Positions 40,581-44,632 of a stretch of 47,825 nt of DNA are shown one piece after another (the stretch's first letter is position 1; each line of letters starts with the position of its first letter). Made by a program: the position numbers and the translations under genes. Under the pieces are notes generated by a model. The model was given only the letters and a program-made list of their open reading frames with translations, had not been told where the DNA came from and searched no databases. This stretch comes from Pseudomonadales bacterium. GTDB lineage: Bacteria > Pseudomonadota > Gammaproteobacteria > Pseudomonadales > Pseudohongiellaceae. Location: contig JANQJM010000087.1 of NCBI GenBank assembly GCA_028281635.1, positions 1 through 47,825 on the forward strand. Direction: 5' to 3'.

Positions 40581-42974
40581 ATGATTATTTGTGAGAGCTG
40601 GTTAAAGGAATGGGTTGACCCCAAGTGTGATACCGAGCAATTGGTGTCGCAACTGACCATGGCCGGCCTGGAAGTGGATGGAGTTTCTGCTGTTGCCCGA
40701 GAGTTTTCCGGCATCATCGTCGGCGTTGTTGAGGCCATTGAAGTCCATCCCGATGCCGACAAGTTGAGCGTCTGTACTGTTTTCGATGGTGCCAATAAAC
40801 ACCAAGTGGTTTGTGGTGCGCCCAATGTCAAGGCGGGGATGAAAGCGCCTTTCGCGACTGTGGGTGCGGAAATAGTCACCGAGGAAGATGCTAAGCCTTT
40901 CAAGATTAAGACCGCGAAACTGCGCGGTGTTGAGTCAAACGGCATGTTGTGTTCCGCGGAAGAACTGGGTTTGGCCGAAAGTTCCGAAGGTCTATTAGAA
41001 CTAGCAAGTGATGCACCAGTTGGTGAAGACATCCGAGCCTATTTGCAACTGGAGGACGCGAGCATCGCGTTAGACCTGACACCTAATCGTGGAGATTGCT
41101 TGTCAGTAAATGGTGTGGCACGTGAAGTAGGGGTTTTAGCACGCTCGCCGGTTATTGTTCCTGATGTAAATGATGTGCCAGCAGTCCACGATGAAGAATT
41201 TCCGATTCAGATCACCGCCAAGGATGAGTGCCCACGTTATCTTGGTCGTGTAATCCGCAACATCAATCAGAATGTTGAGGCGCCTCTATGGATGCAGGAA
41301 AAGCTGCGTCGGTCAGGTTTACGAGGTATCGATCCTATTGTCGATGTTACCAACTATGTTCTGATGGAACTGGGCCAGCCAATGCATGCTTTCGATTACA
41401 GGAAGCTAAAGGGCAACATCGATGTGCGGCTGGCAAAGCCGAATGAAAAAATTACCTTGCTCGACGGCAAAGAAGTCGAAATGTCTGCAGACACCCTGGT
41501 GATTGCCGACACTGAAAAGGTGGTAGCGATGGCCGGTATCATGGGTGGTCTGGCCACTGCTGTCAGTAAAGAAACAACGGATGTGTTTTTGGAATGTGCA
41601 TTCTTCTCACCTTTGGCTATATCTGGCAAGGCCCGCAGTTATGGCATGCACACCGATGCGTCGCATCGTTATGAACGTGGCGTCGATTACAAACTGCAAT
41701 ACCGTGCCATGGAGCGGGCGACTGAGTTACTACTCAGTTTAGTAGGTGGTGAAGCGGGGCCAGTGACCGAGACTATCGGCAATTTGCCAACAGCTTTGCA
41801 GGTAAGCCTGCGTTACGACTCCATTGTTCGATCTCTTGGTATCACCATGGAGTCTGCTGAGGTTGAGGACATACTTACCCGGCTTGGATTTAATGTCGCC
41901 AGTAAGACCGCGTCCGAGTTGGTGGTGGACGTGCCCAGTTTCCGTTTCGATATCAGCATAGAAGCCGATCTCATCGAAGAACTGGCACGCATATATGGAT
42001 ACGACAATATACCCCTGGGGCAGGGAATGAGCGCCCAGTCATTTGCCAGGGTGGACGAAGCTCAGCTCGAACTCAACAGAATTCGCGATCATTTGGTGGC
42101 ACTGGGCTACCAAGAAGTGATTTCCTACAGCTTCATCGATCCAGAGCTGTCTAAACAGGTCACTGGTGGAGACGAATCCACTATCCCACTGCAGAATCCG
42201 ATCTCGGAAGATATGGGGGTGATGCGCACCAGTCTCCTGCCTGGGTTGCTGAATACCCTGCGCTATAACGCCAATCGCCAGCAAGACCGAATGCGCCTGT
42301 TCGAGACTGGCCTGGCTTTCCAAAATCAAGCTGGAACTACCCGTCAGACACCCCAGATTGCGGGTGTGCTTATGGGTTTAAGAAATCCAAAAAATTGGAA
42401 CAATAATAAAGATTTATCTGATTTTTATGATGTAAAAGGAGATGTGGAAATCTTACTTGGCCTGGGTGGTGGCGGATCACGTATCCAATTCAAACCAGTA
42501 CAGCAGAAGCCCTTTCATCCAGGCCAATGTGCCGAAGTGTTAACCGCTTCCGGCGATTCACTTGGCTTTTTGGGTACACTGCATCCCGCAATCCAGCGTG
42601 AACTGGGGCTTGACAGCACCGTTTGCCTTTTTGAGCTTGATCTCCAGGCGCTGCAGCAGGTGAAAATTCCCCGGGCAGAAGCGCTGTCCAGATACCCGGA
42701 AGTGCACCGGGACCTCGCCATTGTTTTGGACGAATCAGTGTCAGCTGAGGCGATTTCCGCCTCTTTGGCCGAAAATGCCGGGGAATACCTTAGCGGTTTT
42801 CGAATATTCGATGTTTATCAAGGAGATGCAGTCGAAAAAGGCAAAAAAAGTGTCGCTTTGGGCTTGACGTGGCAGCATCCTTCCCGCACTCTTAGCGACG
42901 ACGAGATAAATACAATAATTAGTAATTGCGTCAACGCACTACAAGAACAATTTAATGCAAATTTGCGGAATTGA
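40581..42974 (+). CDS. pheT: Phenylalanine--tRNA ligase beta subunit
   Basis: PheT is the large, non-catalytic subunit that edits mischarged Tyr-tRNA and binds the tRNA. The 797 residues contain an OB-type tRNA-binding domain (about 40-150, [20 protein letters not shown]), the B3/B4 editing domain (about 205-375), B5 domains (about 400-475), a degenerate class II core (about 490-680) and a C-terminal ferredoxin-like anticodon-binding domain ([16 protein letters not shown] to the end). The length is normal. ihfA follows 14 bases after the stop, as in E. coli and Pseudomonas. Confidence 0.97.
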
Positions 42975-42988
42975 TTGGGGATCGGACT

Positions 42989-43297
42989 ATGCCAGATGGA
43001 GCACTCACAAAAGCCGATATGGCAGAGCGCTTGTTTGAGGAATTAGGCCTCAACAAACGTGAAGCCAAGGAAGTGGTAGAGCAGTTTTTTGAAGAAATCC
43101 GTCTGTCACTGGAACGAAATGAACAGGTAAAACTGTCCGGCTACGGTAATTTCGACCTGCGAGACAAGAAACAGCGCCCGGGCCGCAACCCCAAAACCGG
43201 CGAGGAAATCCCTATCAAGGCGCGACGTGTCGTGACTTTCAGACCAGGACAGAAACTGAAGGCGAGGGTAGAAGGCTATGCTGGAACCCAAGAATAA
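42989..43297 (+). CDS. ihfA: Integration host factor subunit alpha
   Basis: IHF-alpha completes the IHF heterodimer with IhfB (26637). From ATG 42989 there are 102 residues: [20 protein letters not shown] is the usual N-terminus, followed by [28 protein letters not shown] and the beta arm with the intercalating proline, [22 protein letters not shown] stands just before the ATG. A TTG at 42971 would overlap the pheT stop but adds residues not seen in the family. The merR gene begins within its last 20 bases. Confidence 0.96.
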
Positions 43298-43631
43298 CGA
43301 CGAATTACCCCCGATTCCCCCAAAGCGGTACTTCACCATTGGTGAAGTCGGTGAACTTTGTGCGGTAAAGCCCCACGTACTCCGCTACTGGGAAGCTGAG
43401 TTTCCCCAACTAAAACCCGTTAAACGGAGGGGAAATCGCCGCTACTACCAACGTCAGGACGTAATCCTTATTCGCCAGATCAAGAGCCTGCTGTACGAAC
43501 AAGGCTACACCATCGGCGGAGCCCGTCAAAAGATGAGCGACAGCCCGGATGAGCTAAGCCAGGCCAAAGTAGATTCTGGCGAAATCAAATCCATGATTAG
43601 AGATTTGGAAGAAGTAATAGCCAAGCTATAA
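43278..43631 (+). CDS. MerR-family transcriptional regulator
   Basis: This 117-residue DNA-binding protein belongs to the short MerR group found next to ihfA in many Gammaproteobacteria (a homologue lies there in Pseudomonas). The winged-helix DNA-binding region is [32 protein letters not shown] (given by position, about 16-47), followed by [30 protein letters not shown]. The C-terminus is a short helix for dimerisation. There is no metal- or ligand-binding domain, so an effector is not evident. It overlaps ihfA by 20 bases and is followed by the tRNA-Pro region. Confidence 0.92.
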
Positions 43632-43739
43632 CGCAAGAATTCCCATCTGGTAATACATTAATTGCGTAATTAGAATACGCGATCTTCTATCGAGCGAAAG
43701 ATATCTTCACAACACGCCAATTTGTGAATAGAACTTCAT

Positions 43740-43858
43740 AGGGTCGTAGCGCAGTCTGGTGGCGCACCATACTGGGGGAGCATGCCACCCAGAAGAAGAA
43801 GTAAAATCCAGAAAGTTAACAACTCCAAAGTCTCTTAACTTTGGGAAGCGGTCTTAAT
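43740..43858 (+). repeat. Tandem unit 1: tRNA-Pro 5' half plus 80-bp spacer
   Basis: The first 39 bases (43740-43778) match the first 39 of tRNA-Pro at 36 positions, from the 5' acceptor strand through D-arm and anticodon loop. The 3' half is missing. A short palindromic stretch (around AGCATGC) follows, then an 80-bp spacer in total that closely resembles that of unit 2. Confidence 0.9.
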
Positions 43859-43973
43859 CGGGGCGTAGCGCAGTCTGGTAGCGCACCATACTGGGGGAGC
43901 ATGCTCCCAAAAGAAGTAAAATCCAGAAAGTTAACAACTCCAAAGTTTCTCAACTTTGGGAAGCAGTCTTAAT
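43859..43973 (+). repeat. Tandem unit 2: tRNA-Pro 5' half plus 76-bp spacer
   Basis: Bases 43859-43897 are identical to the first 39 bases of the real tRNA-Pro. At the anticodon loop the sequence switches to the palindrome GGGAGCATGCTCCC. The remaining spacer repeats that of unit 1, with a long run of identity and only a few changes, and ends directly at the intact tRNA. The unit cannot form a working tRNA. Confidence 0.92.
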
Positions 43974-44050
43974 CGGGGCGTAGCGCAGTCTGGTAGCGCA
44001 CCATACTGGGGGTGTGGTGGTCGTGGGTTCAAATCCCGCCGTCCCGACCA
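43974..44050 (+). tRNA. tRNA-Pro (anticodon GGG)
   Basis: A complete 77-nt tRNA: acceptor CGGGGCG/CGTCCCG, D-arm GCGC with GCGC, anticodon stem CCATA/TGTGG with loop CTGGGGG (anticodon GGG), T-arm CGTGGGTTCAAATCCCGC and encoded CCA. It is the third member of the tandem series and the only intact one. Confidence 0.96.
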
Positions 44051-44058
44051 ACTTACGA

Positions 44059-44094
44059 CACCCTTCGAATACCTCAAGCGGTATTCGAAGGGTG
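44059..44094 (+). terminator. 15-bp perfect hairpin after tRNA-Pro
   Basis: CACCCTTCGAATACC (44059-44073) pairs perfectly with GGTATTCGAAGGGTG (44080-44094) around a 6-nt loop. No T tract follows, so it may stabilise or guide 3' processing of the tRNA transcript, or be a weak terminator. Confidence 0.5.
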
Positions 44095-44217
44095 CCGAGG
44101 CACTGAGCAGCCGTTCCCTCGCAGCCAACTTCTATCTTGAAAATATCTTGTCCGAAGCAACAAAATTTCAATGTACCTCGATTTGTAGCTCAGACTAATA
44201 TAAGACTTGTAGTTGCA

Positions 44218-44409
44218 TCACTTCACCCCTGGCTGTAACCCACACCCAAATTGCCCACCATCACTTCTTATCGGCAAGTGCTGTCCCTCAACCTCATCCA
44301 GGTGCTCAAGTAGTGCCTCGATTACGTAAAAACTCATAGAGCGACCAGTGCTGAGAGACAGCATCTCGAGTCGGTTGTAGACATCTTCGGGGAGATCAAG
44401 GGTAAGCAT
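44218..44409 (-). CDS. Orphan ribbon-helix-helix protein (RelB/CopG-type antitoxin-like)
   Basis: This is a 63-residue protein whose first 43 residues have a ribbon-helix-helix pattern: the strand MLTLDLPEDVYNRLEMLS, then a helix-turn-helix SLSTGRSMSFYVIEALLEHLDEVE. This resembles antitoxins of RelBE-like modules. The ATG at 44409 has GAGAGG about eight bases upstream; the frame is open further up but without a ribosome site. The last 20 residues are not part of the fold. No toxin gene is seen on either side, so it is an orphan antitoxin or a solitary regulator. It lies next to the rearranged tRNA-Pro, a typical place for remains of mobile elements. Confidence 0.75.
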   Translation of the reverse strand: MLTLDLPEDVYNRLEMLSLSTGRSMSFYVIEALLEHLDEVEGQHLPIRSDGGQFGCGLQPGVK

Positions 44410-44632
44410 TCCATACACCTCTCGTCTGTGCTGATGATTCGTTATTATGATTATTGGCAACCGAGAGGTTCGACTACGTCCTTGTAATCTTTAAGCTCTC
44501 CATGCTTGAGTATTAGTGTAGACGATAAGCGAGAAAATGCATGATGACAGCGATACGACAAATCACGAGTTCTGGTGACCTTGAATTGACTCCGATTGAC
44601 TTCGTCATTGTGCCGCCGTCAGGACAACGAAT

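Follow-up and report, generated by a model that had tools for sequence, protein, structure and literature searches.

Tandem tRNA-Pro 5′-half units upstream of tRNA-Pro(GGG): a recurrent kind of tRNA-derived repeat, most probably arising through partial tandem duplication with recombination

Two truncated tRNA-Pro copies precede an intact tRNA-Pro(GGG) gene

The stretch of DNA analysed here (the window) spans 47,825 nt, and towards its end pheT (positions 40581–42974; Pfam phenylalanyl-tRNA synthetase beta domains) is followed by an open reading frame for an HU/IHF-type protein (42971–43297; Pfam Bac_DNA_binding, E=5.6e-30), called ihfA in a first-pass annotation, and by a plus-strand open reading frame for a MerR-family regulator (43278–43631; Pfam MerR_1, E=1.5e-18). 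An intact tRNA-Pro(GGG) gene, identified by ARAGORN and by Rfam (RF00005, 59.4 bits), occupies positions 43974–44050 of the same strand. Between the MerR gene and this tRNA gene lie two further plus-strand segments that resemble the tRNA. In particular, positions 43740–43778 match the first 39 bases of tRNA-Pro(GGG) at 36 of 39 positions (the mismatches being C1A, G5T and A22G) and are followed by an 80-bp spacer (43779–43858), and positions 43859–43897 match at all 39 and are followed by a 76-bp spacer (43898–43973) that directly adjoins the intact gene. We refer to each half together with its spacer as a unit. Neither the spacers nor the intact tRNA's leader significantly resembles the flank that precedes unit 1 (43632–43739; leader homology, p=0.67).

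The halves and their extent had been noted in the first-pass annotation, and our analysis confirms both the identities and the spacer lengths. A repeat search of the window returned three 102-nt copies at spacings of 119 and 115 bp, and a blastn-short comparison of tRNA-Pro with its own 1-kb flanks returned two copies (E=2.6e-18 and 2.8e-14); both half copies are thus beyond chance. The units are arranged head to tail, on one strand and adjoining the intact gene, so that 5′ fragments of the tRNA lie upstream of it. A 14-bp palindrome, GGGAGCATGCTCCC, begins inside the half of unit 2 and runs into its spacer, and the same spacer contains the inverted repeat CCAAAGTT/AACTTTGG. Just 3′ of the tRNA gene, a repeat scan detected an 18-bp inverted repeat (44056–44097) that is possibly a terminator stem; a terminator scan found no T run there. 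Beyond it, a small minus-strand gene (44218–44460) has a weak ribbon-helix-helix match that falls below the cut-off (Pfam RHH_5, E=1.7e-4).

The units recur across the genus

An initial survey of 58 genomes, together with a pattern scan of genome contigs, revealed such units beyond the window. The pattern scan, which demands near-exact halves within a limited range of spacings, gave 13 matches: six half units (L048, L050, L053, L054, L058 and L059), six tandem intact tRNA-Pro genes and one scaffold duplicate across an N gap in Proteus cibi (L051). The six half-unit matches belong to genomes G012, G345, G349, G013, G365 and G035, all of the window's genus. We then searched 84 genomes of the genus, in 60 of which, the window's genome included, the gap between merR and tRNA-Pro is readable; left out were G010 (N gap), G356 (contig begins at the tRNA), G009 (a match without merR that is another tRNA-Pro) and 21 genomes with weak or no matches. 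Recognisable half-bearing units, from one to four at a locus, were found in 17 of the 60 gaps (G000, G002, G011, G012, G013, G017, G035, G329, G338, G345, G349, G352, G359, G361, G365, G367 and G368), with presence assigned by inspection of the search results and with G347, G358 and G369, which may hold decayed unit remnants, scored as lacking them. Complete units are about 99–195 bp long. The first-pass annotation had allowed for a one-off duplication scar should relatives lack the repeat; aligned and counted in relatives, the tRNA-Pro units are recurrent in the genus and are not a one-off.

The units also turn over fast between species of the genus. A quick protein tree of 60 rows requires a minimum of 11 changes in their presence; an earlier 38-row tree gave five, counted after removal of eight outgroup rows and G010. 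One genome nested among carriers, G029, is unit-free: a 49-bp flank sits directly on its intact tRNA, and this gap is identical to the flank that precedes unit 1 at 38 of 49 positions in G017 and 37 of 49 in G035, giving a clean empty site.

The halves end at about base 35–39 of the tRNA, and units inside one genome are near copies of each other. At four of the six multi-unit loci (G000, G013, G345 and G349) the last unit seen has the fewest mismatches to the tRNA, the G345 contig stopping inside a further half; G352 shows a tie and G367 the reverse. Where the tRNA of a genome differs in its anticodon stem, the half tracks this difference in G000 and G011, whereas in G002 and G012 it does not. 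Across 24 units (G329 and G358 omitted), mismatches to the genome's own tRNA occupy 26 of 192 cells for bases 1–8 and 41 of 672 for bases 9–36, a purely descriptive comparison, the units being related. D-stem pairs are broken in units of G002, G012, G017, G035 and G361. Several species partly share the beginning of the spacer (GGGA..TCCC, then AAAAGAAGTA).

Several candidate sources for the tails of the units were rejected. The tRNA-Pro spacer of G012 matches the flank preceding unit 1, including the end of merR, with none of 500 shuffles scoring as well, and a tail copied from the merR 3′ end was significant in that genome only. Descent of the tail from a decayed tRNA 3′ half was clear in none of 16 units (in the best case 34 of 500 shuffles were as good). 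A tail family joining Pro-GGG and Leu-GAG of G367 was also dropped: three Leu–Pro comparisons within G367 gave p values from 0.04 to 0.76, the Leu-GAG tail compared with the window gave p=0.145, and a pooled tail profile did not list Leu-GAG.

Partial copies at other tRNA genes and RtT-like inserts

We searched retrieved flanks for partial copies within 1 kb of tRNA genes (blastn-short, E up to 1e-3), and such copies recur at other tRNA genes of the genus. In the window's genome, upstream copies accompany 5 of 22 tRNA genes, namely Pro-GGG (bases 1–39 and 2–39), Pro-CGG (1–55), Ser-TGA (9–42), Arg-TCG (21–41) and Thr-TGT (1–16), and downstream pieces accompany three. The corresponding counts are 4 of 32 upstream and three downstream in G012, and 5 of 34 and two in G367. 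Because these two genomes were already known to carry Pro units, we added G025, a single-contig genome of the genus without them, in which 3 of 61 tRNA genes have upstream copies and one a downstream piece. Upstream copies were therefore found at 17 of 149 tRNA genes in the four genus genomes as against 0 of 123 in three genomes of other families (G041, G045 and G042), a difference (Fisher p=4e-5) in which genes and orthologues are not independent; with Pro-GGG removed, one gene per genome being assumed, the counts are 14 of 145 and 0 of 120 (p=1.7e-4, with the same non-independence). The three other families do have downstream pieces, at 5 of 123 genes, and the contrast between genus and other families is not absolute, given G046, a genome of a further family in which tRNA-Pro is preceded by different repeats of about 60 bp that contain tRNA-Pro 5′ sequence (L013:1540–1875, with an N gap inside), and G054, in which a half is followed by an N gap.

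Upstream copies retain the 5′ side of the tRNA and downstream copies mainly the 3′ side, and no opposite-strand copies were found at E up to 1e-3 in the genus genomes or the other families. Some upstream copies keep 3′ pieces as well (Pro-CGG, Ser-GGA and Phe of G025), and in G012 internal or 5′-side pieces lie downstream (Arg-CCT, bases 11–25; Thr-TGT, bases 21–53). Of 14 cases, three showed a significant match between the leader preceding the copy and that preceding the intact gene (Pro-GGG of G012, Ser-GGA of G367 and, in the window's genome, Pro-CGG), and non-matching leaders occur even where the tRNA part is 100% identical. The window's Pro-GGG is not among the matching cases, and G012 is the only species tested in which homology of a duplicated promoter was significant for tRNA-Pro. 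Endpoints fell within loops in 8 of 12 events (p=0.006, for events picked after the data had been seen), and loop endpoints suit integrases and hairpin-driven duplication alike.

Other arrangements were seen at individual genes. At tRNA-Ser(TGA) the spacer is repeated further upstream (84% over 133 bp). The upstream 5′ pieces at Ser-TGA (L142) and Arg-TCG (L134) both end in AACC and continue with GACTC and a related spacer; from this common junction, two different tRNAs may be followed by one and the same insert. Ahead of tRNA-Ser(TGA) (L142:336–842) there are repeats of a block that contains a CAGCAC..GTGCTG stem; this block also occurs near tRNA-Lys and tRNA-Thr of the window's genome (L123, L135 and G000:C107). 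In G012, an array at 149-bp spacing on the downstream side of tRNA-Arg(CCT) reaches as far as about 900 bp from the gene (L223); it has five copies of tRNA bases 31–77 at 100% and one at 81%, with pieces of bases 11–25 in between.

The clearest case is tRNA-Ser(GCT) of G025, a plain tandem array in which the leader too has been duplicated. Its four upstream units (L362:121–1090), which measure 229, 217, 217 and 217 bp, each consist of tRNA bases 1–69, a T-loop insert, a short 3′ remnant and a leader; neighbouring units are identical at 217 of 217 and 215 of 217 positions, and the leader preceding unit 1 closely matches that of the intact gene. The T-loop insert is RtT-like. A covariance model, R1, built from ten inserts at genus loci gave 35 matches at E up to 0.01 in the 84 genus sources, a count that includes the ten training copies and in which overlapping loci are partly repeated. 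Among 36 loci of G025 its four matches all lie within the Ser(GCT) array, and in 82 loci of the three other families it had none. An insert region at L281 (1145–1278) scored 36.3 bits against the Rfam RtT model (E=1.5e-5), below the curated threshold of 45. RtT-like T-loop hairpin inserts were also seen in partial copies on both sides of tRNA genes at L204, L213, L219, L268, L274, L275, L281, L129 and other loci. The R1 insert model had no match in the window, and the Pro units are therefore not of the RtT kind; likewise, an Rfam scan of positions 43500–44300 at E up to 5 did not have RtT among its matches.

Origin of the units

We consider it probable that the units arose by partial tandem duplication of the tRNA-Pro gene and are turned over by recombination via their common 5′ piece. 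A segment ending in the anticodon loop would be repeated head to tail, placing 5′ copies before one intact gene; indeed, with one end of a duplication inside a tRNA gene, 5′ pieces would come to lie upstream and 3′ pieces downstream, and an intact gene would be left. The common 5′ piece would then permit homologous (unequal) recombination or slippage to add units, to remove them cleanly and to renew the piece adjoining the intact gene. Selection would retain one intact tRNA, the addition or removal of units being harmless, while spacers would drift. Copies at other tRNA genes have loop hairpin inserts as well. The tRNA-Pro locus presumably took the same route as tRNA-Ser(GCT), with recombination as the agent, and slippage amplification, one of the options raised in the first-pass annotation, is, together with unequal recombination, what fits best. 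Arguing against a plain recent duplication, the leader would have been copied too, yet it is mismatched in the window and in most cases: homology between the spacer and the flank ahead of the first copy is found at Pro-GGG of G012, Ser-GGA of G367, Ser-GCT of G025 and the Pro-CGG gene of the window's genome, but not in the window. Old age combined with homogenisation of the tRNA part, or the insertion of new DNA, would explain the mismatched leaders; the greater variation of bases 1–8 than of bases 9–36 is not something that homogenisation would lead one to expect.

Alternatively, the units could be scars left by a rare type of integrative element. An old 5′ half would stay upstream while the element supplied both a new promoter and a fresh 5′ half, the element later being lost or being only about 70 bp long. 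Islands with a 5′ tDNA fragment do exist (159 of 3919 in Islander, the other 3760 having a 3′ fragment; PMC4383910), in line with the earlier statement that islands mostly leave 3′ fragments, and a review describes pTN3-like integrases that use the 5′ half, an arrangement it calls seldom met in bacteria (PMC8371274). The loop endpoints described above lie in loops that integrases use, and the spacer leaders are mostly unlike the leader before the copy. Against this, the half and the intact tRNA, where they share a contig, are always about 99–195 bp apart, and the genus search could detect halves at any distance, although contigs break off at the locus in G345, G368 and G329; the array units, moreover, are near-identical tandem copies. 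Neither a phage nor a plasmid origin was retained: eight phage rows matched the tRNA part only, and the best 10 of 44 plasmid records matched the tRNA part or a half plus tRNA, with no match beyond tRNA sequence. Because in no case seen did island-sized DNA separate the half from the tRNA, island scars are disfavoured, as is the anticodon-loop recombinase suggested earlier, and we regard such an origin as quite unlikely. An assembly artefact, in which a repeat would mark a contig junction, is hardly credible. The look-alike half that precedes tRNA-Pro in Proteus cibi stems from scaffold duplication across an N gap, and in several relatives the locus contains N gaps or runs into contig ends; but the units of a given genome differ from one another, independent assemblies show the layout again, and the single-contig G025 has the same kind of array at tRNA-Ser. 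For the phenomenon as a whole this reading is refuted, and since units 1 and 2 of the window differ, they are not one contig piece doubled.

The units might instead be retained for what they do, each being a small transcription unit (leader, tRNA 5′ half and hairpin) that would yield a chimeric small RNA or act as an extra promoter for tRNA-Pro. The recurrence of the units in the genus, the common spacer start and the lower variability of bases 9–36 would suit such an array, as may the analogy with the RtT RNAs upstream of tRNA genes in Actinobacillus pleuropneumoniae, which are reported to give northern signals (PMC4986893). The structural evidence points the other way. The consensus fold of the Pro units showed no covariation supporting structure (term, +0.25; a double change in one of nine pairs), folding energies were ordinary (window z-scores of −0.28 to −1.39), and the broken D-stem pairs occur in units of five genomes. 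Moreover, clean absence of the units is frequent across the genus, a strict consensus scan detected no sigma-70-type site before the tRNA, and in the Rfam scan of 43500–44300 only the intact tRNA reached its gathering score, with no T-box or other leader family. A function for the Pro units is therefore unsupported, the tRNA-like leader or decoy RNA that had been put forward finds no backing in these results, and we judge a functional array unlikely. A more specific version, in which the upstream units would be a 5′-sided counterpart of RtT arrays, that is, transcribed chimeras of tRNA 5′ sequence and a loop hairpin, multiplied by recombination at many tRNA genes and serving to adjust the supply of tRNA, either as small RNAs or as spare promoters, strikes us as quite unlikely.

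The units are thus a real and recurrent new form of tRNA-derived repeats, most likely produced by partial tandem duplication together with recombination, and they have both likenesses to and differences from known systems. RtT or rtT repeats (Rfam RF00391) are also tandem, tRNA-derived and variable in number beside a tRNA gene, as with the 175-bp rtT VNTR that differs between Salmonella serovars (PMC2658671), and copies that lie beside other tRNA genes in the genus contain RtT-like T-loop inserts; unlike RtT repeats, the tRNA-Pro units are 5′ halves cut in the anticodon loop and have no RtT-like insert, and the Rfam RtT model ends in a tRNA 3′ end. Since RtT repeats upstream of tRNA genes in Actinobacillus have already been published (PMC4986893), the upstream position alone is not new; among open-licence PMC papers we found no report of arrays of tRNA 5′ halves upstream of tRNA genes. 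The prokaryotic tRNA gene fragments of van der Gulik et al. 2023 (PMC9897764) are likewise partial, non-canonical tRNA sequences near a canonical gene, and are credited in that account to element integration or CRISPR activity, not to local tandem duplication. Tandem duplication also alters tRNA dosage in the tRNA gene gain described for Pseudomonas (PMC7661048), where the duplications span 45–290 kb and a whole tRNA gene, whereas the present units are truncated and measure about 0.1–0.2 kb. The case shows how the surroundings of a tRNA gene can be rebuilt without islands, as truncated copies accumulate beside it, and it lends itself to the questions of whether breakage or switching takes place at tRNA loops and whether 5′-sided relatives of RtT-like RNAs exist.

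Finally, the units share with Islander-type attachment scars the expected tRNA end on the expected side, the same orientation and endpoints near the anticodon or T loop. They differ in being tandem and near-identical, in keeping the 5′ rather than the 3′ fragment and in having no island or integrase between fragment and gene, the window spacers being 80 and 76 bp where Islander applies a size criterion of over 2 kb; upstream 5′ tRNA fragments, in other words, need not be island scars. Separately, 3′ portions of tRNA-Pro(GGG) were seen away from the gene, in the style of ordinary islands, in G330 (L098) and G035 (L099).
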